From Halichondria panicea (Eukaryota > Porifera > Demospongiae > Suberitida > Halichondriidae): a DNA stretch of 64,000 bases. The translations under genes and the position numbers were made by a program. The stretch covers positions 475,001 through 539,000 of the forward strand of contig NC_087390.1 of assembly GCF_963675165.1 (NCBI RefSeq). Direction: 5' to 3'. Shown piece after piece: positions 19,924 to 54,806 of this stretch. Numbering within the stretch: position 1 is the first letter of the stretch; each line of letters starts with the position of its first letter. The notes under the pieces are model-generated. The model saw only the letters and a program-made list of their open reading frames with translations, was not told the origin of the DNA and did not search any database.

Positions 19924-21395
19924 GACGGACGCAAGTGATGATAAATGTGTACGCTGACCTTGTGTTCCAGTTTGGAATGGCTGACGAGGACCAAGCCGCT
20001 TACATTTATTCAAGGACCAACACGGCTATGCAGTACATCAAAGCTGAACGGTTTTACGATGGCTTCAAGGTACACACACTATACACAGCATCAGAACTCT
20101 AGTCACAGAGGCAACTCTAGTACTCAGTACCTGTACAGGAACCAACTACTGAAGCCACTGACTAACTACAATGTATGTGCATCACGTACCCCCTCTCGTC
20201 CACCAGGGTTCAGTACCTAGCAGTTAGTGAACATTGTAGCCAGCTCTGTGCTTGTCTAAGCTATTACTCAACGCAGCTGTTACGGTTTATTCGGTGGCCA
20301 ATTCACAGAAGCTCAGCATCCAAAATCCATTTCACATTCTCAAAGTAGGTATAACATGTTTGTGCCGACTGTTGCAGATTTTTGATGCTCTGCTCAACGG
20401 AGATCTGATACCGTATCCTACGTACTTGTACAACATCACTGGATCTACCAACTACTACAACATTCTCAGGACCTCGCTAGGCACACGTATGTTGATAGAG
20501 TATGTCAGAAAGTGTTGGATAGAAGTATACAGTCCTGTTTGGAGTGGTATATACTCTTTTTACCTATACGTAGTGTACTGAACATTCTACTGTATTATTT
20601 ATCTTATGTTGGTACATACTTAACCAGTGTTTGGTTAAAGGGCTCTTGTTTGAGTAGCTAATTGAATTTGGGAATCTGTACAAGTTAAGTTGTGTGTATG
20701 GATTAAATTTGGGGAAGTCCTGGACTATACAATTATCTCTATAGTGGTCATGTACTGTGTTAGAGGACATTGAGAAGCTGTGTGCATGGCAAATAATGGC
20801 AAGAAAAATTAGCAGTAATACATGCTGCCCCCTCCCCTAAGCCATAGTCTAGCCTGCCACCCTGTTTGAACTTTACACTGGGGGAAACACTGACTTAAGT
20901 ATTGTAGGGTGTTGTTGAAATGTCATGCCCTGGGGTGATTGGTTTCTCCCTGTGTGTATACTTGTGTAAGGAAACCAATCTATAGCTGTCACCCCTTGCA
21001 AGGGCAGACCAACAGTGGCTATAATAAAGAGGTGGCCTGGTTAAAACACATGCTATGGAGACTCTGAAGCTTGTTAACCTGGCTGTATTGTAAAGGGTGC
21101 CTGATTATTGGCTGACCACAATAGACAAGTTTCACTGCATTTAATTTAGTTACAGTATAAGAACTGTAGAGGGCAATTGCTGACATTTCGGTCATTCAAA
21201 TTGATTATTTAAGACAGTTCTTCACATGCAATATTTCTTATTCGTCCAGCCTCCCCTGATTTTAACTACTACGTTCCCTTCATCAACACCACTGACATCA
21301 GACGAGCCATTCACGTCGGCAGTCTCAGCAATGGCTATCACGCTGAGGTGGACAGATTAAAGGTTGCTAGTTTTGTATATGTTCTTACCTCCTCC

Positions 21396-22490
21396 CCCCC
21401 CACACACACACACACACATTTCTTGTTCTCACCCCCCCCCCCCCACACACACACACACATTTCTTGTTCTTACCTCCCCCCCACACACACACACACATTT
21501 CTTGTGCACACACACATTTCTTGTTCTCCCCCCCCCCCACACACACACACACACATTTCTTGTTCTTACCTCCCCCCCACACACACACACATTTCTTTTT
21601 CTCACCCCTCCCCCCACACACACACACACACATTTCTTGTTCTCTTCCCCCCCCCACACACACATACACACACACATTTCTTGTTCTCCCCCCCACACAC
21701 ACACACACATTTCTTGTTCTCACCCCCCCCCCACACACACACATTTCTTGTTCTTACCTCCCCCCCCCACACACACACACATTTCTTGTTCTCCCCCCCC
21801 CCCCCCACACACACACACATATCTCTTGTTCTTACTTCCCCCCCACACATACATTTCTTGTTCTTACCCCCCCCCCCCATACACACACACACACATTTCT
21901 TGTTCTCCCCCCCCACACACACACATTTCTTGTTCTCACCCCCTCCCCCCCCACATACACACACATTTCTTGTTCTCATCCCTCCCCCACACACACACAC
22001 ACATTTCTTGTTCTCACCCCCCCCACACACACACACACACACACACATTTCTTGTTCTCCCCCCCCCCACACACACATTTCTTGTTCCCACCCCCCCCCC
22101 CCCACACACACACATTTCTTGTTCTCACCCCCCCCCCCACACACACACACACATTTCTTGTTCTCACCCCCACCCCACACACACCCACATATTCTTCTTC
22201 TCACCCCCCCCCACACACACCCACATATTCTTGTTCTCACCCCCCACACACACACACATATTCTTGTTCTCACCCCCCCCAAACACACACACACACATCT
22301 CTTGTTCTTACCCCCCCCCCACACACACACATTTCTTGTTCTCACCCCCCCCCCACACACACACACATTTCTTGTTCTCACCCCCACCCCACACACCCCA
22401 CACACACACACATATTCTTGTTCTCACCCCCCCCACACACACACACATATTCTTGTTCTCACCCCCCCCACACACACACATTAAAGTAGA
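21396..22490. repeat. 1.1-kb minisatellite (CA)n-TTTCTTGTTCTCACCCC
   Basis: About thirty head-to-tail units of roughly 30-45 bp, each made of a CA run, TTTCTTGTTCT and a C run. Long open frames on both strands arise only because the unit lacks stops; they encode PPTHTHTFLVLT-like repeats and are not genes. Confidence 0.95.
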
Positions 22491-23025: not shown

Positions 23026-26000
23026 TCATAATAACTGAATAAACACAATTCTTCGTCTGACATCAACGTACTCGGGACATGTGACAATGTTCTTTTTTGT
23101 ATTCTTAAAAGCGCCGAATTCTTTCAGTGTTTTGTTTTCAAACAGCCCCCTGACAATTGGGGAGTAGTCGGTGATCCCAGCATTGAGGTGAAACACCTCT
23201 AGAGTCTTGTTCTTGGCTAACACATTACCAACAGCTTCAGCCTCGACAGTGGTAACAGTGTACGGTATTAAATCTTTTAATGGTGGCACATACAGGAGTT
23301 TCAGGTGTTTAACTGTATTGTTTTCTCTCAATGCTTCCAAGGCGGGTAGTAGATCCGGTAGCAAACGCTTAAAAAACCTAAGTTCAATGAATTGTAGAGT
23401 TGTATTCCGTTGAAACATTTCGGCCAGTTCAAGCGTTCCGAAATAATAAAGTGGTTCATTATAACTAATAGGAGGTGAAATAGTTAGCTCACTTGAGAAT
23501 CTACTACACATTCTCTCGGCTTTTGACGATCCTTTCTCATAGTACACATAAGGAGTGGGAAGTACACACTGTGTCCATGAGTCATTCAGTTTAGTCAATC
23601 CAGCTAAAAACAATAGAATCATCTTGTATGATCCATCATCAGCCTTTGTTTCAAACAAAAGAAACTGCTTGTGTGGGGTTTTATTTCTCCAGACATAAAA
23701 TGCAGCGAGGAACTCTTGAAGTGTTAGATGAAGGAAATTGTAAGATGGAGAACTGTTGCTTTTCTTATATAAAGGATGTACACTGTTCATGAATCCAAGT
23801 GTGTTAGTATCAACAACATCTTCCTTGAAAAAAACCAACTGTTGTTTTTTTTTTGTTATTCCATTGTATGCAATATGGCAGAGCTTATCAAAATGTACTT
23901 GAAGTGACGAAGGTAACTTACTCAGCTCACCACTCCAATCACTGTCTGAATGTCTTTTAATCAAAATTTGACAGTATTCGGTGTATAGTTCAGTTGTTGT
24001 GTTGGGGATTATGCTATTGCTATTCTCATGGTTTTCTCTGTAAACTTCGACTACTATTCTGGCATGAAGAGGGTTATACATTGCACTAGAGATACGTGGA
24101 TTAGAGTTAATGTATTTATGTAGTTCTGGTGGAGCCCCATCTTTGATCATTAGATCAATGTACTCTTGAATTTGTTCGGAAGAAAAACCTAAAATTTCAA
24201 TGAACTGATCAACTCTTGAGCTACAAGTAACAGGTAGATCGCATACAGCCCAGGGCCTAGTGGTAACAAGCACGGTACTAGCTGGCAGAAGACGTCCGGT
24301 TATTAGTTTTATAAAAATGGAATTTTTTTGTCTAAAGAATGGTGGCAACTCATCCAGGCCTTCCAAAACGAAAAGAATACCGTGCCCATGACAATTTTGT
24401 ATGATAGTAGTAGCAACAACATTTTTAGAAGCATCAGTATTTTCACATTGAAATAGATCAACTAATTCTACAGCTTCCTGAACATTCTCATCTCGAAGTC
24501 GGAGCAACACAACGAGGGAGTAATCTGTCCAAACTTCACCATTAGCCCATCGTCTGCACAGTTCCCATGACAAAGTCGTCTTACCTCCTCCAGGAGCCCC
24601 TTTAATGACAACTAGTTTAGAGAATTTGCCCTCTACTTTGGAAGCTATCTGGTCCATTGTGATTCTCTCTCTAGGAAATCCATCCAGCTCGCCTTTAACT
24701 ATTAGTGACCAGGACTCTTCCATTTTCTTTCTTGATAAATGTTTACTTACATCCGCACATTCTAGGTTAACAAAATGCTTAACACACTGGAGAGGATATT
24801 TGTCATCAGCAGGGAGAGATCTTGTATCGTAAATATTAGTTAAGTATGATCGATAAATTCCTATTGCTTCATCTGGTTGGATGGTGGAACGATTATCGGA
24901 TTTGGATTCTACAGTATAAAAGAATAATCATGAAGCGAAGGTAATAATACAGTGGAATCTTCAATAATGGGCCCTCCAAACTAAGTAAACTGTGAGAATT
25001 ACAACAAATAGGACTGCGCTTCCACCCCCAAACTTTCAGAGTCTTACATGAACTAATGCAGCAATCCCTGAGATGGGTCCTTTACTCTATCACCACTCAC
25101 ACAAACTACCGATTAGCTAACTCACTGGTTGGTCCAGGAGTCGTTGTGGACAATTTCTTCTTAGATGGCCCAGGTGAAGTATCGTCATCTGCTATAATTA
25201 TATATACAATTGACTGAAGTACATAAAGATAATAATATAAGTGTTCGTGATGAGTTGAACTATCCATTCACATAGTTAAGTACTGTTGACTATTCATGGA
25301 AATGCTTATAGTGTGGTCTATATTGCTAGTAGCCTCACAATTGTTCTACATATCTAAGTTACGTTCCTAGCTTTAGGCTACGGTATACTGATATTTATCA
25401 ATAGAAAAGGTCAAGGTTAGCCTCATGACTATTCATACCTGTACATGCCTCCTCTATAGCCTCAGCGACATCATTCCGTGCAACTGTTGGTGCTCTGAGA
25501 CTTTGACATATGTCAGAATAGGTGAGAGGGCCAGTCTTCAAGCGAGCAGATATCATTTCACGTAAGCAGTCCTTGTTCCTGTGACACTCATCTTTTATAT
25601 CTTTGAGGGTGCCAGGATCTAATCCCAGATCAAGTCCCAGGTCTAACCAGTCTCCAGCAGCTTTTATCAAGTTCTTGTAAACAAAATTCACATCACCGAG
25701 AGTCAGAATTGAGCCTATAAAAATTACAACCAAATGATAAGTACACATGGTCATACACATGGTTTATGCAAGCATGTTCTCTGAGGAGCAATGTCATTGT
25801 GTATATTATGTATCATAAGGAGACACCGCTTACCAAGCGTTGGTCCAGGGTTTGCTTCAACATCTCCTGACTGTAACAGTAAGCGGAATATCAGTAACAG
25901 TATATACAGACTGAGAGTGGGGGGCCGATTAGTGCTCTGAGCTCTCACTTGGAACTTGATCGGCTTTTCTTGAGTATCAAAAACTAGAAAGTAAGAGTGA

Positions 26001-26642
26001 CGTTTATAATTATTGTGGCAGTAAATATATAATTGATTACCTGATGTGGTTGAGTTCCATTGTTTCCGAGGGTTCCATCTCACCAAGCAGGCAGTGATGA
26101 GTGAGTAGCAGGTGATAAACACAGCTGACAGAATGAGAACGGCTAGTGCACTCCCCCTCCATCCCAGCTCACAAGGAAACACTCCGGTCCAACTCAAGTC
26201 AACCATAGGGCAAGCAGGACGTGGGGGAGCTGGGTAGAGTTACATAAAATTAATATATTCATGTGATGTGACATCACAATTGTGGTCATGAGATTCCGTG
26301 AATACCAAGCAATGCTGTTTAAAACCGACCTTTATATTATAATTATGTACATTATATGATGTAGCCTATGCTCCGTAATATGCTCGGTATAATTAGTGTA
26401 TGATAAGAAATGTTATGCAATTATTGGTGAGTATGCTTCACTGACTTACAGGAAAAAGTTTGTAAGAAGAGTATGTATCTGATGGTGACCATAATGAGGT
26501 AGAGTTGGTAGAGGACAGGGGTGATCAACACAGAGGCAAGGCTGGCTCTGAGCTGCCAACTAGGCTTAGGGAAAACCAGGGTAACATCATCGTCCAGATC
26601 ATTTGAGAGATAACGGGCATGTCTCTGAGATGTCATCTTCAT
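23026..26642 (-). CDS. NLR1: TM-TM-2A-death-NACHT-LRR receptor with shortened LRR region
   Basis: Six exons: 26450-26642, 26041-26229, 25834-25983, 25439-25714, 25126-25191, 23026-24908; 918 aa, every junction in phase. Residues 33-60 and 91-114 are hydrophobic membrane segments. Residues 151-175 are a third hydrophobic run ending in LLLQSGDVEANPGP, a complete 2A motif (DxExNPGP), so Gly174/Pro175 is a predicted ribosome-skipping point. Residues 179-269 are a death domain (WLDLGLDLGL...CLREMISARL...YSDICQSLR). A PGPT-rich linker leads to the NACHT domain: Walker A GAPGGGKT at 395-402, Walker B ILFVLEGLDELP at about 469-480, sensor-like VLVTTRPWAV. The LRR part is much shorter than in NLR2 and NLR3 through an in-frame loss. 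NLRs oligomerise on sensing microbial or damage signals; the ligand here is unknown. Confidence 0.88.
25849..25890 (-). other. 2A-like ribosome-skipping motif in NLR1
   Basis: Encodes LLLQSGDVEANPGP in frame, ending in exon 3. The downstream product would start with Pro-Thr-Leu-Gly-Ser just before the death domain. The family requirement D-x-E-x-N-P-G-P is fully met. Confidence 0.85.
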
Positions 26643-36154: not shown

Positions 36155-38543
36155 GGACGGACGCAAGTGATGATGAATGCGTACGCTGACCTTGTGTTCC
36201 AGTTTGGAATGGCTGACGGGAACCAAGCCGCTTACATTTATTCCAGGACCAACACGGCTGTGCAGTACATCAAAGCTGAATGGTTTTACGATGGCTTCAA
36301 GGTACACACACTATACACAGCATCAGAACTCTAGTCACAGAGGCAACTCTAGTACTCAGTACCTGTACAGGAACCAACTACTGAAGCCACTGACTAACTA
36401 CAATGTATGTGCATCACGTACCCCCTCTCGTCCACCAGGGTTCAGTACCTAGCAGTTAGTGAACATTGTAGCCAGCTGTGTGCTTGTCTAAGCTATTACT
36501 CAACGCAGCTGTTACGGTTTATTCGGTGGCCAATTCACAGAAGCTCAGCATCCAAAATCCATTTCACATTCTCAAAGTAGGTATAACATGTTTGTGCCGA
36601 CTGTTGCAGATTTTTGATGCTCTGCTCAACGGATATCTGATACCGTATCCTACGTACTTGTACAACATCACTGGATCCACCAACTACTACAACATTCTCA
36701 GGACCTCGCTAGGTACACGTATGTTGATAGAGTATGTCAGAAAGTGTTGGATAGAAGTATACAGTCCTGTTTGGAGTGGTATATACTCTTTTTACCTATA
36801 CGTAGTGTACTGAACATTCTACTGTATTATTTATCTTATGTTGGTACATACTTAACCAGTGTTTGGTTAAAGGGCTCTTGTTTGAGTAGCTAATTGAATT
36901 AGGGAATCTGTACAAGTTAAGTTGTGTGTATGGATTGAATTTGGGGAAGTCCTGGACTATACAATTATCTCTATTGTGGTCATGTACTGTGTTAGAGGAC
37001 ATTGAGAAGCTGTGTGCATGGCAAATAATGGCAAGAAAGATTAGCAGTAATACATGCTGCCCCTCCCCCAAGCCATAGTCTAGCCTGCCACCCTGTTTGA
37101 ACTTTACACTGGGGGAACTGACTTAAGTTATTGTAGGGTGTTGTTGAAATGTCATGCCCTGGGGTGATTGGTTTCTCCCTGTGTGTATACTTGTGTAAGG
37201 AAACCAATCTATAGCTGTCACCCCTTGCAAGGGCAGACCAACAGTGGCTATAATAAAGAGGTGGTCTGGTTCAAACACATGCTATGGAGACTCTGAAGCT
37301 TGTTAACCTGGCTGTATTGTAAAGGGTGCCTGATTATAGGCTGACCACAATAGACAAGTTTCACTGCATTTAATTTAGTTACAGTATAAGAACTGTAGAG
37401 GGCAATTGCTGACATTTTGGTCATGCAAATTGATTATTTAAGACAGTTCTTCACATTCAATATTTCTTATTCGTCCAGCCTCCCCTGATTTTAACTACTA
37501 CGTTCCCTTCATCAACACCACTGTCATCAGACGAGCCATTCACGTCGGCAGTCTCAGCTATGGCTCTCAGTCTGAAGACGTGGAAATGGCCCTTGGAAAC
37601 AAGAGTGCAATCTCAGCTATGACTATCACGCTGAGGTGGACAGATTAAAGGTTGCTAGTTTTGTATATGTTCTCACATTTCTTGTTCTCACACCCCTTCA
37701 CACACACACACATTTCTTGTTCTCACCCCCCCACAAACATTGTTCTCCCCCCCCCCCCACACACACACACATTTCTTGTTCTCCCCCCCACAAACACACA
37801 AATTTCTTGTTCTCCCCCCCCCCCCCCCACACACACACACACATTTCTTGTTCTCCCCCCCACACACACACACAAATTTCTTGTTCTCCCCCTCACACAC
37901 GCACACACATTTCTTGTTCTGACCTCCCCCCCACACACACACACATTTCTTGTTCTCCCCCCCACACACACACACAAATTTCTTGTTCTCACCTTCCCCC
38001 CCCCCACACACACACAAATTTCTTGTTCTCACCTCCCCCCCACACACACATTTCTTGTTCTCACCTCCCCCCCACACACACATTTCTTGTTCTTACCTCC
38101 CCCCCCACACACACACACACATTTCTTGTTCTCACCTCCCCCCCACACACACACATTTCTTGTTCTCACCTCCCCCCCACACACACACATTTCTTGTTCT
38201 CACCTCCCCCCACACACACACATTTCTTGTTCTCACCCACCCCCACACACACACACATTTCTTGTTCTCACCTCCCCCCCACACACACACATTTCTTGTT
38301 CTCACCTCCCCCCCCACACACACACACATTTCTTGTTCTCACCCCCACACTCTCACCCCCACACACACACACACATTTCTTGTTCTCACCCCCCCCCCCA
38401 CACACACACACTTCTCCCCTTCACAGGTGTGGACAGTGAACAAGTTTATGCAGGTGGTCGTGAGAGGGGGTGGGCACATTCTCCCGTTTGACGAGCCGGA
38501 GAGAGCACTCAACCTCATCCAAAACTTTGTGAACATGCAATAG
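36155..38543 (+). pseudogene. CPVL: CPVL-type carboxypeptidase, 3' exons, copy 2
   Basis: Exons 36155-36301, 36610-36712, 37479-37650 and 38427-38543 correspond to copy 1. The third exon keeps about 60 extra bases (SYGSQSEDVEMALGNKS) that resemble the normal family sequence; reading through them meets a TAA at the exon end. The last exon has lost the IGDDVAGYV segment and begins VWTVNKF. GGGHILPFDEPERA with the catalytic His remains. The Asp exon is missing and replaced by minisatellite. Clearly decaying. Confidence 0.85.
37672..38415. repeat. Minisatellite in CPVL copy 2
   Basis: Same CA-run/TTTCTTGTTCT/C-run unit as 21396-22490, about twenty units, in the same intron. Confidence 0.95.
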
Positions 38544-38877: not shown

Positions 38878-41800
38878 TTAATTATTAAAAGGGTCCTTCT
38901 TCATAAACACAATTCTTCGTCTGACATCAACGTACTCGGGACATGTGACAATGTTCTTTTTTGTATTCTCAGAAGTGCCGAATTCTTTCAGGGTTTTGTT
39001 TTCCAACAGCCCCCTGACAATTGGGGAGTAGTCGGTGATCTCAGCATTGAGGTGAAACACCTCTAGAGTCTTGTTCTTGGCTAACACATTACCGACAGCT
39101 TCAGCCTCTTCAGTGGTAACAGTGTACGGTTTAAACTTACTGATTGGTGGCACATACAGACAGAGTGTCAGGTGTTTAACTGTATTGTTTTCTCTCAATG
39201 CTTCCAAGGCGGGTAGTAGATCCCCTGGCAACTGTATACAAAACATAAGTTCAATGAATTGTAGAGTTGTATTAAGTTGAAACGTTCCGAAATCATAATC
39301 ATAATCTGAGTGCCTACTATAAGTATATAAAAAATCAAGCGGTTCATTATAATTAATATAAGGTGAAATATTTAGCTTAGTTAGACTTGTGTTAACTTGC
39401 AGTCCCTGCATTAAATGACTCAGGCTACTTTTCAAATAAACATGATGCAGTGTCAATTCCTCTAGAGATGTGTCAGTCTGTAGATACTCACCAATAGCTT
39501 CATCAAAATCGCAGTCAAGGTGACATGTAAGTTTAAGGCTTTTAATGGAATGTAATCGATTGTCTTTGAGATAACGTAAAAGTTCACAGACATTATCAGG
39601 ACATAACAAAGTTAGTGATTGCAAGTGCTGGGGGGTACAGAAATATTCAAATTGGCCCTTTATTTCACTTTGGATATCGAGTTCTTTAAGTATCGGACAA
39701 TTGAGTAGAGTACTAAAAAGCTGCTCAGATTGTGCGGGGGTCAAGTGAAATTTGGAAGAGCATCGCAGATATTGTAAGCTTAGTTTCCAGTGGCTTAATA
39801 TTGAAATTAAGTTTTTGGTGGTAGACTCTGAAAAAACAGTTTTTAGAAACGTTCTTTTTGCTTTGTTATTGGTAAATGAAATTTCAGACAGTAAATGTGG
39901 CAAGATTTTCGTGTTGTTCCTTTTTAACTCAGTCACGTTCAATCCAATTGAAATACACCCATTATCAGTATTTATGATGATGGGTGAGTTAATAATAGAC
40001 GGCTCTTGTACCAAATGTATCACCAACATTTCAATACTAGAATGTGCAATGAAGTCAGACAACAACTCTTCATCAGCTGGCGATACTCGAGCACATTTCA
40101 AAACTTTCAAGCAGTGTTTTGGCTTCAAAATATCAAGTATTCGTATCACAGTGTCTCTTGAGATGCCAAAATCTAGCTCTACAACACTTAAGTTTGGAGA
40201 TAGCTCTATAGTGTCAAATATTTTTAATGTACATGGAACCTCAGGCCCAACAAATTTATCGTCAATATATCCTGATCTTTGATTACTGATAGTGACGCTT
40301 TCTAATTCTGGTAGTATCCTATCAGTGAGTGAATGCCAAGCAGATGGAATCTTGAATGTGGTAGACATTTTCAGATGCCTTACACTTAGAGTAAAAGAAG
40401 GCAAAACTTTGTTGATTCCTGCTAACATCATCGATCTATCCACATAACTTATATTAAACTTGAACATGTCCATTAGAGTTACTTTAAAATGAGCAGAAGC
40501 TACAACATAACCAAGTGCAAACTGATCAATTCTCCAATCATCTAGCGGTAGTTCATACAGCACATTACAATACAAGTCCTTCATGGCTTGCACATTTTGG
40601 CTTTCATAGATCCACAGAATTTGATCACTTGAGAATCTACACATTCTCTCGGCTTTTGACGATCCTTTCACATAAGGAGTTGGAAGTACACACTGTGTCC
40701 ATGGGTCATTCAGTTTAGTCAATCCAGCTAAAAACAACAGAATCATCTTGTATGATCCATCATTAGCATTCGTTTCAAACAAAATCAACTGCTCGTGTGG
40801 GGTTTTATTTTTCCAGACGTAAAATGCAGCGAGGAACTCTTGAAGTGTTAGATGAAGGAAATTGTAAGATGGAGAACTGTTGCTTTTATTATGTAAAGGA
40901 TGTACACTGTTCATGAATCCGAGTGTGTTAGTATCAACAACATCTTCCTTGAAAAAAACCAACTGTTGTTTTTCTTTTGTTATTCCAATGTACGCAAATT
41001 GGCAGAGTTTATCAAAATGTACCTGAAGTGACCAAGGTAACTCACTAAGCTCGTCACTCCAATCACTCTCTGGTTTGTCATGTAAATATCTTTCAATTAA
41101 AACTTGACAGTATGCAGTGTATAGTTCAGTTGTTGTGGTAGGAAAGACGCTGCTTTTTTTGTGATAATTTTTTTTGTAAACATCAACTACAATTCTGGCA
41201 TGAAGAGGGTTATACATTGCGCTAGATATATGTGGATTAGAGTTAATGTATTCACGTAGTTCTGGTGGAGCCTCTCGATTTTTTATCATTAGATCAATGT
41301 ACTCTTTAATTTGTTCGCCAGAAAAACCTAAGATTTCGATGAACTGATCAACTCTTGAGCTACAAGTGACAGGTAGATCACATACAGCCCAGGGCCTAGT
41401 GGTAACAAGCACAGTACTAGCTGGCAGAAGACGTCCGGTTATTAGCTTCATAAATATGGAGTCTTTTTCTCTAAGGGATGGTGGCAATTCATCCAGGCCT
41501 TCCAAAATGAAAAGTATGCCCTGCCCATGATTCTTTCGGATAATAGTATAAATATTTTTGGAATCATCAGTATCTTCACATTGAAATAGATCAACTAATT
41601 CTACAGCTTCCTGAATATTCTCATCTCGAAGTCGGAGCAATACAACGAGGGAGTAATCTGTCCAAACTTCATCATTAGCCCATCGTCTGCACAGCTCCCA
41701 TGACAAAGTCGTCTTACCTCCTCCAGGAGCCCCCTTAATGACAACTAATTTAGAGAATTTGCCTTTTACTTTGGAAGCTATCTGGTCCATTGTGATTCTC

Positions 41801-44800
41801 TCTCTTGGAAATCTATCCAGCTTGCCTTGAACTATTTTTGACCAAGACTCTTCGATTTCCTCTCTGGATAAATGTTTACTTACATCCGCACATTCTAGGT
41901 TAACAAAGTCTTTAACACACTGGAGAGGATATTTGTCATCAGCAGGGAGGGATCTTGTATCGTAAATACTAGTTAAGTATGATCGATAAATTCCTATTGC
42001 TTCATCTGGTTGGATGGTGGAACGATTATCGGATTTGGATTCTACAGTATAAAAGAATAATCATGAAGCGAAGGTAATAATACAGTGTAATCTTCAATAA
42101 TGCATGGGCCCTCAAAACTAAGTAAACTGTGAGAAATACAACAAATAGGACTGCGCTTCCACCCCTAAACTTTCAGAGTCTTACATGAAAAAATGCAGCA
42201 ATCCCTGAGATGTGTCCTTTACTCTATCACCACTCACACAAACTACCGATTAGCTAACTCACTGGTTGGTCCAGGAGTCGTTGTGGACAATTTCTGCCGC
42301 CCAGGTGAAGTATCGTCATCTGAAAGTCATAATTCGTTGCTATACAATTGACTAAGAACATACCAATAATTGTAAAATTTGGTAGGTGTTTTAATTTGGT
42401 GTTTTTTTGGAAATTTATCGAAAATCGCCAAATTTAAAAAGTTTTTCGGTGGACACAATGTCATTGCTGTAGTAGCCACACCTGAGACACCAAATTAAAA
42501 ACTGCCATGCAATTACGTTCAAATGGCTCATCTGCTAATAATAATAATATCCGCCAAATTATAGTGTTAATAATGTGCCCTTCCAACTAAGTAATTATAA
42601 TTGTATAAAGTGTGGATACACTGTTCGATATTATTAATAGTACCTCTCCAAATAGGGCTGTAATTCTATCCCCTGAACTTTCTTACATGAAAAAGTGTAC
42701 AGATGATTATGTAGTCTTTTATCTATCACTGTATACACACAAACTAAACTGATTAATAATATTAGGTAAGGCAATTCACTCACTGATTGGTTCACGTTTT
42801 GAATATTCTTCAATGCTGGTGGCTGTGTCCTCTTTTCCCAGACGGCGGACAATAGTTAGAAGTGCTTGAAATGTCGCTTCTTTGGGTTTCCTTCTCTTCC
42901 AGCATTTCAAGCATAGATGTACTGCAACCCTTGTGTTCTCTGCTCGCTTTACATCACCGTCTTCATGAGGGTCTAGTGATAATGCGGCAGCAAGAAGTGT
43001 AGCACTATCAAAATAAGTAGCCAAATGAATCAGATCTCCATCTTTTATCACCGTATCTAGCATTGAAGCTTCCAAGGTTTCTGTGAGTCCAGCACCACCT
43101 AATGAACAATATATATAATTATTATCAGTCGCTATAATTATATTAATTATGTTATGTATTACAAAATAATAATGCAGGTTTGGTACAGCGTTGTACTATA
43201 ATACTGTAGGCACATATAATGATAAACCAAAACACAAAACACAAATGGAAACAAAACATTCAATAATTGACCCTCCAAACTATTCTACCGCAATAGATTC
43301 AGCGTTACTATCCTGAGCTGTACGAATATTTAAAACACGAAAATTAATATTAAAAATAATGAGTATTTCATACGAATTTGCACCAACGAATATTACTCGC
43401 TATATAGATACGGTAGGTACACTAAGTCTACTTGCTGAACTACGTACACTAGTAACAATAATTAATATAGAAATTATGGTAACTAATTATGATAATGGGC
43501 GATGGTGACCGAAGCTATTAAGATCAATGCCCGTGGTTCCATATTAATTTTATCAAGTAATATAAGAAATAATTGCAAGCCCTCCAAACTAAATAAATAC
43601 AGTACCACTCCAAATAAAGCTGTGCTTCCATCCCAGTACATAAACAATGTATAGCAATCTTTCAAAGGTCCATGTCTTTTATTCTATCTATCACAACTCA
43701 CACAAACTACCGATTAGCTAACTCACTGGTTGGTCCAGGAGTCGTTGTGGATAATTTCTGCCTCTTAGATGGTCCAGGTGAAATATCATCATCTGAAAGT
43801 AAGTAAATGTTTGTTATGATTACAATTGACTAAAGTACTGTATTTCATCTAAGTTACATTCCTGACTAGGCTGGTAAAATATCCATTCATGTACAACTTC
43901 CATCAATACAAACTACCGATTAGCTAATTAAGGTGATTCACTCACTGGTTGGTTCAGGATTCATTGTAGACGTATTTGTTTTAGATGGCCCAGGTGAAGT
44001 ATCGTCAACTGAACGTAAATAATTAGATACTATATAATTATACAAAAGTACATAATTATAGTAGTGTACCTGATGTGGTCAACTACGTATATACCCATGC
44101 GTTCACATACCTAAGTCTATCCATAGAAATGCTTATAGTGTGGTCGAGGTTAGCCTCATCACTATTCATACCTGTACATTCCTCCTCTATAGCCTCAGCA
44201 AGGAAGTTTTGTCCAACTGTTGGTGCTCTGAGACTCTGACACAATTCAGAATACGTAACACTGGCAATTTTCAAGCGAGCAGCTAGCATTTCACGTAGAC
44301 AGTTTTGATTGTCTCCATGTTTATCCCTGATATTATCGAGGGTGTCATAGCTCACTTTCAGAGCAAGTCCCAAGTTAAACCATTTTCCAGCGGCATTAAT
44401 CAGTTTCTCGTAAACAGACAACAAATCATCGATAGTCAGAATCGAGCCTATAAAAATATTAATTTCAATGGCATACACATGCATGGTCTATAAATAACTG
44501 ACAGTATTTTATATATAATATGCATACAGAAGATAACACTTACCTAGCGTTGGTCCAGGGTTTGCTTCAACATCTCCTGACTGTAACAGTAAGCGGAATA
44601 TCAGTAACAGTATATACAGACTGAGAGTGGGGGGCCGATTAGAGCTCTGAACTCTCACTTGGAACGTGGTCGGCTTTTCTTGAGTATCGAAAACTAAAAA
44701 GTAAGAGTGACGTTTATAATTATTGTAGCAGTAAATAATTATATATAGTTGATTACCTGATGTGGTTGAGTTCCATTGTTTCCGAGGGTTCCATCTCACC

Positions 44801-45560
44801 AAGCAGGCAGTGATGAGCGAGTAGCAGGTGATAAGCACAGCAGACAGAATGAGAACGGCCAGTGCACTCCCCCTCCATCCCAGCTCACAAGGAAACACTC
44901 CGGTCCAACTCAAGTCAACCACAGGGCAAGCAGGACGTGGGGGAGCTGTGTAGAGTTACATAAATATATTCATGTGCTGTGACATCACAAGTGTGGGTCA
45001 TGAGATTCCGTGAATAGCAATTAAGTAATACACTAATGGCTGTTTCCTTAAGTGTATTGTAGCCCATAATAATTATGAGTAGAGTACAAGGGAGTATTAT
45101 GAGACCTCTATAAAATTAATGTTTCTGACCAATTAATGTCAGCTAAATAGCCTGTTCACTAAACCATAAATATTCATGTGCTATATTCATGTGCTGTGTC
45201 ATCACAAGTGTGTGTCATGAGATTCCGTGAATACCAAGCAATGCTGTTTAAAACTGACCTTTATATTATACGTAGCGTATGCCCCGTAATATGCTCTGTA
45301 TAATTATACCAAAGTGTATGATAAGAAATGTTATGCAACTATTGGTGAGTATGCTTCACTGACTTACAGGAAAAAGTTTGTAAGAAAAGTATGTATCTGA
45401 TGGTGACCATAATGAGGTAGAGTTGGTAGAGGACAGGGGTGATCAACACAGAGGCAAGGCTGGCTCTGAGCTGCCAACTAGGCTTAGGGAAAACCAGGGT
45501 AACATCGTCGTCCAGATCATTTGAGAAATAACGGGCATGTCTCTGAGATGTTATCTTCAT
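38878..45560 (-). CDS. NLR2: TM-TM-2A-death-death-NACHT-LRR receptor
   Basis: Nine exons: 45368-45560, 44757-44945, 44544-44693, 44172-44447, 43946-44008, 43727-43792, 42784-43098, 42263-42319, 38878-42041; 1490 aa, all in phase. The first 178 residues equal NLR1 in layout, with two membrane segments and LLLQSGDVEANPGP ending at Gly174/Pro175. The first death domain (WFNLGLALKVSYDTLDNI...CLREMLAARL) is followed by three SPGP.../TPGPT linker exons and an additional 105-residue death-fold exon (TLEASMLDTVIKDGDLIHLA...FQALLTIVRRLGKEDTATSI) that NLR1 and NLR3 lack. NACHT Walker A GAPGGGKT is at 540-547, Walker B ILFILEGLDELPP follows. The C-terminal half carries many LRRs (e.g. LSVVELDFGISRDTVIRIL, TVKHLTLCLYVPP). 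Minus strand, tail-to-tail with CPVL copy 2. Confidence 0.9.
42784..43098 (-). other. Extra death-fold exon unique to NLR2
   Basis: Phase-matched exon with GT-AG borders, inserted among duplicated linker exons. Contains DLIHLATYFDSATLLAAALS and VHLCLKCWKRRKPKEATFQA, with the helix pattern of a death domain. Domain call by eye. Confidence 0.7.
44559..44600 (-). other. 2A-like ribosome-skipping motif in NLR2
   Basis: Encodes LLLQSGDVEANPGP, identical to NLR1 and NLR3. Confidence 0.85.
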
Positions 45561-47679: not shown

Positions 47680-49664
47680 GACGGACGCAAGTGATGATGA
47701 ATGCGTACGCTGACCTTGTGTTCCAGTTTAGAATGGCTGACGAGAACCAAGCCGCTTACATTTATTCAAGGACCAACACGGCTGTGCAGTACATCAAAGC
47801 TGAATGGTTTTACGATGGCTTCAAGGTACACACACTATACACAGCATCAGAACTCTAGTCACAGAGGCAACTCTAGTACTCAGTACCTGTACAGGAACCA
47901 ACTACTGAAGCCACTGACTAACTACAATGTATGTGCATCACGTACCCCCTCTCGTTCACCAGGGTTCAGTACCTAGCAGTTAGTGAACATTGTAGCCAGC
48001 TGTGTGCTTGTCTAAGCTATTACTGAACGCAGCTGTTACGGTTTATTTGGTGGCCAATTCACAGAAGCTCAGCATCCAAAATCCATTTCACATTCTCAAA
48101 GTAGGTATAACATGTTTGTGCCGACTGTTGCAGATTTTTGATGCTCTGCTCAACGGAGATCTGATACCGTATCCTACGTACTTGTACAACATGACTGGAT
48201 CCACCAACTACTACAACATTCTCAGGACCTCGCTAGGTACACGTATGTTGATAGAGTATGTCAGAAAGTGTTTGATAGAAGTATACAGTCCTGTTTGGAG
48301 TGGTATATACTCTTTTTACCTATACGTAGTGTACTGAACATTCTACTGTATTATTTATCTTATGTTGGTACATACTTAACCAGTGTTTGGTTAAAGGGCT
48401 CTTGTTTGAGTAGCTAATTGAATTTGGGAATCTGTACAAGTTAAGTTGTGTGTATGGATTGAATTTGGGGAAGTCCTGGACTATACAATTATCTCTATTG
48501 TGGTCATGTACTGTGTTAGAGGACATTGAGAAGCTGTGTGCATGGCAAATAATGGCAAGAAAGATTAGCAGTAATACATGCTGCCCCTCCCCCAAGCCAT
48601 AGTCTAGCCTGCCACCCTGTTTGAACTGTACACTGGGGGAAACACTGACTTAAGTATTGTAGGGTGGTGTTGAAATGTCATGCCCTGGGGTGATTGGTTT
48701 CTCCCTGTGTGTATACTTGTGTAAGGAAACCAATCTATAGCTGTCACCCCTTGCAAGGGCAGACCAACAGTGGCTATAATAAAGAGGTGGTCTGGTTCAA
48801 ACACATGCTATGGAGACTCTGAAGCTTGTTAACCTGGCTGTATTGTAAAGGGTGCCTGATTATAGGCTGACCACAATAGACAAGTTTCACTGCATTTAAT
48901 TTAGTTACAGTATAAGAACTGTAGAGGGCAATTGCTGACATTTTGGTCATGCAAATTGATTATTTAAGACAGTTCTTCACATTCAATATTTCTTATTCGT
49001 CCAGCCTCCCCTGATTTTAACTACTACGTTCCCTTTATCAACACCACTGACATCAGACGAGCCATTCACGTCGGCAGTCTCAGCAATGGCTATCACGCTG
49101 AGGTGGACAGATTAAAGGTTGCTAGTTTTGTATATGTTCTTACCTCCCCCCCCCACACACACACATTTCCCACACACACACACATTTCTTGTTCTCACCC
49201 CCCCCCCCCCACACACACACACATTTCTTGTTCCTACCCCACACACACACACATATTCTTGTTCTTACCCCCCCACACACACATTTCTTGTTCTCACCCC
49301 CCCCACACACACACATTTTTGTTCTTACCTCCCCCCCACACACACACATACTCTTGTTCTCACCCCCCCCCCCACACACACATTTCTTGTTCTCACCCCC
49401 CCCACACACACACATATTCTTGTTCTCACCCTCCCCCCACACACACACACACACATTAAAGGTTTCTAATTTTGTTATGTTCGGGTTAACCCTAACCCCC
49501 ACACACACATTTCTCCCTTCACAGATAGGAGATGATGTTGCCGGGTATGTGAGGACAGTGAACAAGTTTATGTAGGTGGTCGTGAGAGGGGGTGGGCACA
49601 TTCTCCCGTTTGACCAGCCGAAGAGAGCACTCAACCTCATCCAGAACTTTGTGAACATGCAATA
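47679..49664 (+). pseudogene. CPVL: CPVL-type carboxypeptidase, 3' exons, copy 3, with stop
   Basis: Exons 47679-47825, 48134-48236, 49005-49117, 49525-49664 match copy 1. In the last exon VNKFMQVVV reads VNKFM-stop: CAG is TAG at about 49573, before the catalytic His motif. Catalytic Asp exon is absent as in the other copies. Exon 2 has a normal GT donor. Non-functional as a peptidase. Confidence 0.9.
49143..49460. repeat. Minisatellite in CPVL copy 3
   Basis: Nine or ten units of the same CA/TTCTTGTTCT/C-run repeat; the shortest of the three arrays. Confidence 0.95.
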
Positions 49665-52900: not shown

Positions 52901-54806
52901 AGCTTGCCTTGAACTATTTCTGACCAAGACTCTTCGATTTCCTCTCTGGATAAATGTTTACTTACATCAGCACATGTTAGGTTAACAAAATGCTTAACAC
53001 ACTGGAGAGGATATTTGTCATCAGCAGGGAGAGATCTTGTATCGTAAATACTAGTTAAGTATGATCGATAAATTCCTATTGCTTCATCTGGTTGGATGGT
53101 GGAATGATTATCGGACTTGGATTCTACAGTATAAAAGAATAATCATGAAGCGAAGGTAATAATACAGTGGAATCTTCAATAATGGGCCCTCCAAACTAAG
53201 TAAACTGTGAGAAATACAACAAATAGGACTGCGCTTCCACCCCCAAACTTCCAGAGTCTTACATGAACAAATACAGCAATCCTTGAGGTGTGTCCTTTAC
53301 TCTATCACCACTCACACAAACTATACCGATTAGCTAACTCACTGGTTGGTCCAGGAGTCGGTGTGGACAATTTCTTCTTAGATGGCCCAGGTGAAGTATC
53401 GTCATCTGCTATAATTAAATATACAATTGACTAAAGTACATAAAGATAATATATAAGTGTTCGTGACGAGGTGGACTATCCATTCACATAGTTAAGTGCT
53501 GTTGACTATTCATAGAAATGCTTACAGTGTAGTCTATATTGCAGTAGCCTCACAACTGTCCTACATATTTTAGTTACGTTCCCGGCTTTAGGCTACGGTA
53601 TACTGATATTTATCCATAGAAATACTGGTCAAGGTTAGCCTCATGACTATTCATACCTGTACATGCCTCCTCTATAGCCTCAGCGACATCATTCCGTTCA
53701 ACTGTTGGTGCTCTGAGACTCTGACATATTTCAGAATAAGTGAGAGGGCCAGTCTTCAAGCGAGCAGCCAGCACTTCACATAGACGAATTTGATTATCTC
53801 GATGTTTATCACTGATATTATTGAGGGTGTCAAAACCTAATCCCAGATCAAGTCCCAGGTTGAACCAGTTTCCAACAGCTTTTATCAGGTTCTTGTAAAC
53901 AGAATTCAAATCATCGAGAGTAAGAATTGAGCCTACAAAAATTACCAGTGAATGGTAAGTGAATGGCACACACATGGTTTAAGCATACTCTATAAACAAC
54001 TGACAGCAGTTTGTACAAAGAGACTGCTTACTAAACGTTGGTCCAGGGTTTGCTTCTACATCTCCTGACTGTAACAGTAAGCGGAATATCAGTAACAGTA
54101 TATACAGACTGAGAGTGGGGGGCCGATTAGAGCTCTGAGCTCTCACTTGGAACTTGATCGGCTTTTCTTGAGTATCAAAAACTAGAAAGTAAGAGTGACG
54201 TTTATAATTATTGTGGCAGTAAATATTACCTGATGTGGTTGAGTTCCATTGTTTCCGAGGGTTCCATCTCACCAAGCAGGCAGTGATGAGTGAGTAGCAG
54301 GTGATAAACACAGCTGACAGAATGAGAACGACCAGTGCACTCCCCCTCCATCCCAGCTCACAAGGAAACACTCCGGTCCAACTCAAGTCAACCACAGGGC
54401 AAGCAGGACGTGGGGGTGCTGTGTAGAGTTGCATAGATATATTCATGTGCTGTGACATCACAATTGTGGTCATGACTCCGTGAATGCACTAATGGCTGTT
54501 TAAACTGTCCTTTAAGCATAATGTGGCCTATATTAATATGCTCGGTATAATTATACCAAGTGTATGATAAGAAATGTTATGCAATTATTGGTGAGTATGC
54601 TTCACTGACTTACAGGAAAAAGTTTGTAAGAAGAGTATGTATCTGATGGTGACCATAATGAGGTAGAGTTGGTAGAGGACAGGGGTGATCAACACAGAGG
54701 CAAGGCTGGCTCTGAGCTGCCAACTAGGCTTACGGAAAACCAGGGTAACATCGTCGTCCAGATCATTTGAGAGATAACGGGCATGTCTCCGAGATGTCAT
54801 CTTCAT
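49987..54806 (-). CDS. NLR3: TM-TM-2A-death-NACHT-LRR receptor, full-length LRR
   Basis: Six exons: 54614-54806, 54230-54418, 54032-54181, 53657-53932, 53343-53408, 49987-53123; 1336 aa, all in phase and with exon sizes identical to NLR1 for exons 1-5. Two membrane segments, 2A motif ending Gly174/Pro175, death domain (WFNLGLDLGLGFDTLNNI...LCEVLAARL), one TPGPT linker, NACHT with GAPGGGKT at 395-402 and ILFILEGLDELPP, and a long LRR region (SLQYLRCSSRVNLTPAQSEQ, SIKSLKLTCNLDCDFDEAIG). The start MKMTSRRHARYL is chosen to match NLR1; an in-frame Met exists further upstream (54968) but the added residues are not conserved. Minus strand, tail-to-tail with CPVL copy 3. Confidence 0.9.
54047..54088 (-). 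other. 2A-like ribosome-skipping motif in NLR3
   Basis: Encodes LLLQSGDVEANPGP. Third identical occurrence; the following residues (TFSS) differ from NLR1/2 (TLGS), so the motif is conserved while its neighbourhood drifts. Confidence 0.85.

Follow-up and report, generated by a model that had tools for sequence, protein, structure and literature searches.

Immune-receptor-like genes of the sponge Halichondria panicea that appear to place a 2A motif between a conserved membrane module and a separate receptor

The 2A or StopGo element is regarded as a device of viruses, with few examples in cellular genes (PMC12846837), and nucleotide-binding, leucine-rich repeat receptors (NLRs) are named among its cellular carriers (PMC11512398). 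The closest described system is that of the sea urchin Strongylocentrotus purpuratus, in which the N-terminal signal/2A sequence of SpNLR2A gives an estimated recoding of about 80% in vitro, and the same stretch serves as a signal sequence when it is not skipped (Roulston et al. 2016, PMC4981915). About 35% of sea-urchin NLRs (85 of 241) have a 2A (PMC4981915). The present analysis concerns a related element in the sponge Halichondria panicea, in a receptor gene here called NLR1 that lies in a stretch of 64,000 nucleotides (the window; assembly GCF_963675165.1, contig NC_087390.1, positions 475,001 to 539,000). Dozens of immune-receptor-like genes of this sponge appear to make a small, conserved membrane protein and a separate cytosolic receptor from one message.

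The two systems have in common a hydrophobic tract of the signal type ahead of the 2A, a NACHT receptor behind it (of the death-domain, NACHT and leucine-rich repeat (LRR) kind in the sea urchin, with a probable death-fold domain and with repeats seen by eye only in the sponge), and many genes per family. The hydrophobic stretch just ahead of the sponge motif belongs to the known signal/2A type. However, the 14 sea-urchin 2As that were analysed are 26 residues long, lie at the N-terminus and are themselves the signal (PMC4981915), whereas in H. panicea a separate module of about 120 residues stands in front. It holds a conserved loop and two more hydrophobic segments, and it also precedes bodies that are not NLRs. 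The 2A core of NLR1 occupies residues 168-175, behind two other hydrophobic segments, and since it is not at the N-terminus, the defining feature of the sea-urchin type is absent.

In demosponges, NACHT/LRR proteins with transmembrane segments have been proposed to be membrane-bound, and the largest NLR expansion relative to assembly span is that of H. panicea (PMC12909245, the former citing Yuen et al. 2014). The family described here also has putative transmembrane segments, but its membrane part would separate co-translationally. The term “2A-like” has no occurrence in the available text of PMC12909245. H. panicea NLRs have also been found in a transcriptome (PMC8242945), and the available text of PMC8623073 mentions neither sponge nor NLR. 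Neither a conserved membrane protein ahead of a receptor 2A nor a 2A in sponge receptors was found described among the literature matches listed (titles and abstract openings; Rao et al. 2025, on eukaryotic 2As, lay outside the search). The initial annotation of the window took the arrangement to be undescribed; the literature searched does not contradict this, but the sea-urchin paper places some NLR 2As “within the N-terminal region” (PMC4981915).

The NLR1 gene and its 2A motif

NLR1 was modelled on the minus strand as six exons, running from an ATG at 26642 to a stop codon at 23026 and translating into 917 residues. In the model the introns have GT-AG ends, the lengths of exons 2-5 are divisible by three, and each of exons 2-6 begins in phase 1. 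The features of the gene, all on the minus strand, are the following.

26450..26642, minus strand: exon 1, N-terminus and first hydrophobic segment (residues ~27-60), from open frame, consensus GT donor and hydropathy
26041..26229, minus strand: exon 2, second hydrophobic segment, preceded by the conserved loop (CPMVDLSWTGVFPCELGWRGSAL) and followed by RWNPRK
25834..25983, minus strand: exon 3, variable linker, hydrophobic LSLYILLLIFRLLLQ, 2A motif and first residues of the downstream product
25841..25864, minus strand: 2A (StopGo) core DVEANPGP, predicted break Gly174/Pro175 (codon 25843-25841)
25439..25714, minus strand: exon 4, adjoining the 2A, with a probable death-fold domain
25126..25188, minus strand: exon 5, short linker (DDDTSPGPSKKKLSTTTPGPT)
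23026..24908, minus strand: exon 6, NACHT ATPase and shortened C-terminal region, to the stop codon

Exons 1-3 (26642-25834) encode two hydrophobic segments and then LSLYILLLIFRLLLQSGDVEANPG followed by Pro, with an in-frame splice to exon 4; the third hydrophobic stretch, LSLYILLLIFRLLLQ, runs directly into SGDVEANPGP. Re-modelling of the exons and their translation confirmed the coordinates, strand and complete 2A motif in exon 3 of the initial annotation. In the translation of 917 residues, NPGP ends with Pro175, which agrees with the predicted upstream product of 174 residues given there and corrects the downstream one from 744 to 743. Its two hydrophobic segments ahead of the 2A were likewise recovered, with Kyte-Doolittle peaks above 1.6 at ~36-60 and 86-113 and a pre-2A peak at 151-169, in five runs.

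In six frames of the whole window, NPGP occurs only in three receptor copies and in one unrelated NNPGP. The residues upstream of the core are LLLQSG or LLLQCG, L-rich and ending in (A/S/C)G (compared by eye with the motif classes of PMC12846837). L-rich upstream motifs with this ending are a defined viral StopGo class, and motif 6, one of the two L-rich ones, has been assayed and found active (PMC12846837). In the window copies the core is in frame and the residues at p6-p11 are suitable, and by sequence the NLR1 motif is a StopGo element. The viral elements have in common with it the core (D/G/C/N)(V/I)ExNPGP and, by eye, an upstream hexapeptide like LLLLSG (PMC12846837). Unlike them, the sponge motifs lie in cellular genes, with 116 pattern matches in one genome, some in retrotransposon-like frames.

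The domains after the motif were compared with Pfam and with known structures. NACHT (PF05729) is over the cut-off in NLR1 (E 2.5e-19), and exon 6 matches NLRP3 and other NLR structures (best E 1.1e-15). No LRR family was found by Pfam in NLR1 at E<=1 or in two annotated relatives, P0004 and P0005, at E<=0.01, and the C-terminal region of NLR1 is repeat-like by eye only. For exon 4, eight sequences of this type were taken. Pfam Death was found in five, that of NLR1 itself not among them, with a best E of 0.011 that is below the cut-off, and UBR1-like_wing competed in six of the eight (best E 0.0062); in the exon-4-like region of P0001, another relative, UBR1-like_wing scored 27.8, just over the cut-off of 27. 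However, when a profile of the eight sequences was compared with the PDB, all seven matches were death domains (FADD, PIDD/LRDD; E 0.027-0.089). NLR1 exon 4 is also 45% identical to a repeated domain of P0001, and Pfam Death is found in P0001 at 452-521 (E 7.5e-11). A death-fold domain at once after the 2A, as first proposed, is plausible and on the PDB profile probable, but its Pfam Death scores are weak and another family competes.

The other two receptor copies of the window, NLR2 and NLR3, have leaders of the same kind, with the identical core DVEANPGP.

44172..45560, minus strand: NLR2 leader, exons 45560-45368, 44945-44757 and 44693-44544; death-fold exon 44447-44172
44574-44551, minus strand: NLR2 2A core (in the genome C14:519552-519574)
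38878..42060, minus strand: NLR2 NACHT body, an open frame of 1060 amino acids
49987..54806, minus strand: NLR3, 1335 amino acids, exons 54806-54614, 54418-54230, 54181-54032, 53932-53657, 53405-53343 and 53123-49987
54062-54039, minus strand: NLR3 2A core (in the genome C14:529040-529062)

NLR1 is ~415 residues shorter than these in its C-terminal region, with the frame kept (23026-24908). Intron 2 of NLR1 is 57 nucleotides long and stop-free, so in-frame retention is possible, and the model of P0004 retains the NLR3 counterpart of it. Past the 3' end of each receptor copy there is a CA-rich minisatellite array (window 21395-22480, 37674-38415 and 49150-49451), and these arrays are apparently part of the duplicated receptor unit.

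Linkage, conservation and possible exchange across the genome

A DNA pattern for D(V/I)ExNPGP gave 116 matches in the 131,455,214 bases of the genome and 0 when the pattern was read backwards; 115 of these places made up the working 2A list. The surrounding DNA was read at 45 of the pattern places, for 30 of these no farther than +-1.5 kb, at eight module matches and in three further stretches. With the membrane core of 96 residues as query, a six-frame search matched 92 exons, which were sorted into 47 of the exon-2 type and 45 of the exon-1 type. In 44 of the 47 exon-2 copies, a listed 2A lies 184-240 nucleotides downstream on the same strand. At L056 the exon-2 copy is followed by GDVEVNPGP, which fits the pattern and is the 116th place, and L054 (C14:1031250-1031950) and L055 (C14:3451040-3451740) have GNVEANPGP, a natural D-to-N change, in exon-3 frames that are otherwise open. 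The canonical motif is therefore present in 45 of the 47 module copies and the expanded core (D/G/C/N)(V/I)ExNPGP in all 47, compared to ~0.02 expected by chance (arithmetic). StopGo variants with N at p12 are >95% active in natural contexts, and D12N only modestly so in foreign contexts (PMC12846837). The co-translational split that was predicted for NLR1 is supported by a complete 2A with an L-rich upstream stretch between a hydrophobic module and a death-fold/NACHT receptor, and the prediction is well founded because the 2A is kept in 47 genomic copies of the module, two of them as D-to-N.

Seen from the receptor side, a search with P0004 gave 49 matches (31 of 1165 candidates scored), namely 30 NACHT bodies and 19 leader, death or C-terminal pieces. 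Since this search scores the best candidates only, the 30 bodies are those most like P0004. A family 2A lies upstream of all 30 within 9 kb and of 29 within 2.6 kb, with three of the 47 family 2A positions approximate.

Conservation was compared between 12 C14-type copies (11 on C14, one on C16) and seven C2 copies; the first segment was represented by nine and six of them, the second by 12 and six, and the 2A region by 11 and seven. Between the families, the proportion of synonymous differences (pS) is 0.83, 0.63 and 0.75 and that of nonsynonymous differences (pN) is 0.20, 0.18 and 0.26 for the first segment, the second segment and a 2A region of 25 residues. The 2A core does not vary at G, V, E, N, P, G and P, nor at D but for the two N copies, and x is A or S; silent changes are found at the V, E, N and both P codons. 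The C2 family has LLLQCGDVESNPGP, and one of its seven copies has LLLQRG. The nonsynonymous-to-synonymous ratio, omega, is 0-0.14 within the C2 family. Identity between NLR1 and P0011, a C2 relative, is 15% in the N-terminus, 59% in segment 1, 60% in the loop, 54% in segment 2, 14% in the linker and 23% in the pre-2A stretch, with 5/6 residues of LLLQxG and 7/8 of the core. Two conserved islands are what would be expected if the membrane protein and the 2A were both used. Because the membrane core is one of these islands, set apart from the 2A core by diverged sequence, the module seems to have more than a signal function.

The annotated proteins show how the module is combined. A protein search with NLR3 residues 1-280 gave 13 matches, all from H. 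panicea (contigs C14, C2 and C15) and none a model of NLR1 itself. GD(V/I)E(A/S)NPGP is found in 12 of them, with NPGP starting at residues 164-212; P0013 has no 2A and by eye has only a C-terminal exon-4-like domain in common. The membrane module is present in 11 of the 12, from nine genes, and is missing from P0010, the body of which is dynamin-like. NACHT bodies are seen in P0004, P0005, P0007 and P0008, Roc-like GTPase bodies in P0001 and P0009 (scanned, under the curated cut-off) and in P0003 and P0006 (isoforms of P0001's gene), and ankyrin-repeat bodies in P0011 (scanned) and P0012 (precomputed table). P0002 has an unclassified body with a terminal death domain; it comes from another gene than NLR1, has the exon 1-5 joins of the NLR1 model, and its NPGP also starts at residue 172. 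NACHT, Roc-like and ankyrin bodies are thus all found behind the module, and the arrangement recurs across the genome with several classes of receptor. In long proteins, the module was found in no species besides H. panicea (E<=0.001 and E<=0.01); the search also gave 47 short open frames from contigs.

Exons 2-5 are symmetric (1-1), so leader, 2A, death and body exons are exchangeable without loss of frame. For example, in P0045 an EHD-like leader replaces the membrane exons before the same 2A exon and matches EHD2 residues 106-178 (best of six EHD matches, E 2.7e-21). By eye, P0010, P0041-P0044, P0046 and P0047 resemble the P0045 leader. Another example is P0004 (LOC135347242), which joins the NLR3 leader (window 53657-54806) to the NLR2 body (38878-44003) and skips the NLR3 NACHT exon. 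It agrees with the NLR3 leader at 285 of 285 residues, and over residues 431-1484 it has 100% identity with the NLR2 body. In these leader exons L006, the one other leader compared, has three bases that are not those of NLR3. This chimaera could be due to splicing between tandem copies or to a modelling error.

A proposed pair of products from one message, and the alternatives

The motif, its frame, the exon phases, the linkage and the conservation are read from the DNA itself. In the mechanism that we propose, the ribosome would first make a membrane protein of ~174 residues. With its C-terminal LLLIFRLLLQSGDVEANPG in the exit tunnel, the Gly-Pro bond would be skipped and the membrane protein released, and the same ribosome would resume at Pro175 and make the soluble death-fold/NACHT receptor. 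Skipping would keep the receptor cytosolic despite the hydrophobic start of the message, and a small unskipped fraction may remain membrane-linked. The freed receptor would start with Pro (window 25843). Since a proline N-degron pathway is known from other systems, skipping might influence how stable the receptor is.

A topology can be proposed for the module from its charges. Behind the second hydrophobic stretch the sequence is clearly basic, and at the N-terminus it is about neutral, so the two-segment module probably has both of its ends in the cytosol. Insertion of the third stretch as well would leave an unskipped receptor on the lumenal side, and in that case the receptor would have to be separated to be cytosolic. 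The module is recognized by the signatures PSWQL... and VDLSWTG.FPC, and the loop VDLSWTG.FPC.LGWRGSAL is invariant in seven leaders. This invariant loop, together with the use of the module with several receptor classes, favors a shared partner over an address tag.

Sequence evidence of this kind makes it fairly likely that StopGo couples one constant membrane protein to the expression of swappable cytosolic receptors. What we infer here is that skipping occurs, that the leader product enters a membrane, that the receptor is cytosolic and that the two are partners; by analogy with the described elements the NLR1-type products would be expected to separate efficiently. Much like an operon linker, StopGo would fix the co-expression of the common membrane component with whichever receptor is attached. 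One could go further and consider a two-component immunity in which one conserved membrane protein is kept in fixed ratio to many interchangeable death-fold receptors (NACHT, Roc-like, ankyrin), the phase-1 exons being recombinable in the genome or by splicing; this extension we rate at somewhat less than an even chance. If the split works, animals would have a natural route to several proteins per mRNA at scale, NLRs of the H. panicea family that look membrane-bound would be soluble and have their membrane partner as a separate protein, and the natural variants, D-to-N and upstream, would be a ready set for measuring cellular StopGo. The reason why immune receptors recruit 2A becomes testable with simple reporters.

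Several observations weigh against a used membrane partner joined to the receptor by StopGo. Omega within the C14-type family is 0.64-0.98 with very few changes, a range that neither supports nor excludes constraint. For three of the 47 exon-2 copies, an exon-1 match is missing within 3 kb upstream, and the RefSeq-type gene models that join the exons are predictions. The membrane protein is not obligatory, since proteins of the P0045 type are without the membrane exons. Of 1000 shuffles of the NLR1 leader, 108 reach three or more hydropathy runs, and the first segment stays under the 1.6 threshold in P0011, which has a diverged leader; taken by itself, hydropathy is therefore weak evidence. 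For the module, no Pfam family passes the cut-off, and a PDB profile search gave no relative, its two matches at E 0.8-1 being rejected. An AlphaFold model of P0002 (11-sequence alignment) had a mean pLDDT (the program's confidence score) of 38.9 and was unusable; the helices that it shows at 29-62, 84-116 and 151-167 were not used as evidence. Weak Pfam matches of the module were inconsistent among seven members (Commissureless in three, DUF3377 in three, DUF2417 in two, COX2_TM in one and CBM_5_12_2 in one) and were taken as chance transmembrane matches.

The strongest alternative is dual targeting as in the sea urchin. Here the 2A would be deliberately incomplete, giving a cytosolic receptor when skipped and one bound to the endoplasmic reticulum or another membrane when unskipped, with the leader acting mainly as an anchor. 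The sequence is of the same signal/2A type, dual targeting was shown experimentally for SpNLR2A6 (PMC4981915), and in sponges the NLRs that have transmembrane segments were interpreted as membrane-bound receptors (PMC12909245). However, the invariant loop is not needed for an anchor alone, the third hydrophobic stretch would, if inserted, leave the unskipped receptor in the lumen, and a canonical core with an L-rich stretch would predict high efficiency. We regard dual targeting as a real possibility, though a doubtful one.

It is improbable that the 2A is non-functional and that the genes simply encode membrane-anchored NLRs. The annotation does model single fused proteins, and hydrophobic leaders can lower 2A activity. 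However, the core is kept in 47 of 47 module copies (two D-to-N), and between strongly diverged families its fixed positions have silent but hardly any replacement changes.

Least likely of all, and by our estimate very improbable, is that the 2A exon was left behind by a non-LTR (long terminal repeat) retrotransposon or that the gene model wrongly joins a separate upstream gene: PHD-finger-like open frames do directly follow DIE(L/P)NPGP at L012, L014, L016, L028 and L042 (by eye), frames that we take to resemble the first open reading frame of such elements, but no PHD or reverse-transcriptase family was found in NLR1 (NACHT and other NTPase models only) or in seven scanned family proteins, the spacing of the 2A to the module is fixed in 44 copies, the phase-1 exons are symmetric, and the same exon chain recurs in RefSeq-type models of nine genes. 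The motif itself may be of retroelement origin.

Further 2A families

Other genes of H. panicea appear to combine a leader, a 2A and a receptor-like frame. Leaders with WRARIGLF or WRVRTGL are found at L033 and L036 (C5), at L009, L029, L045 and relatives (C1, C3, C4, C11 and C12) and at L010-L011 (C1). Their hydrophobic stretches run into AGDVE(S/L/I/T)NPGP, and death-like frames come next (by eye); Pfam gave nothing for these frames in the two tested (L033 and L009).

A second 2A receptor family is represented by L047-L049 (C15) and L046 (C13). Its leader is short, contains W(R)ARIGLY and a single hydrophobic stretch, and is followed by SGDVELNPGP or AGDIELNPGP. Pfam gives its death-like frame an E of only 0.058. 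Downstream lies a NACHT body, recognized by Pfam in L047 (5.7e-23) and L046 (5.7e-19) and by eye in L048 and L049.

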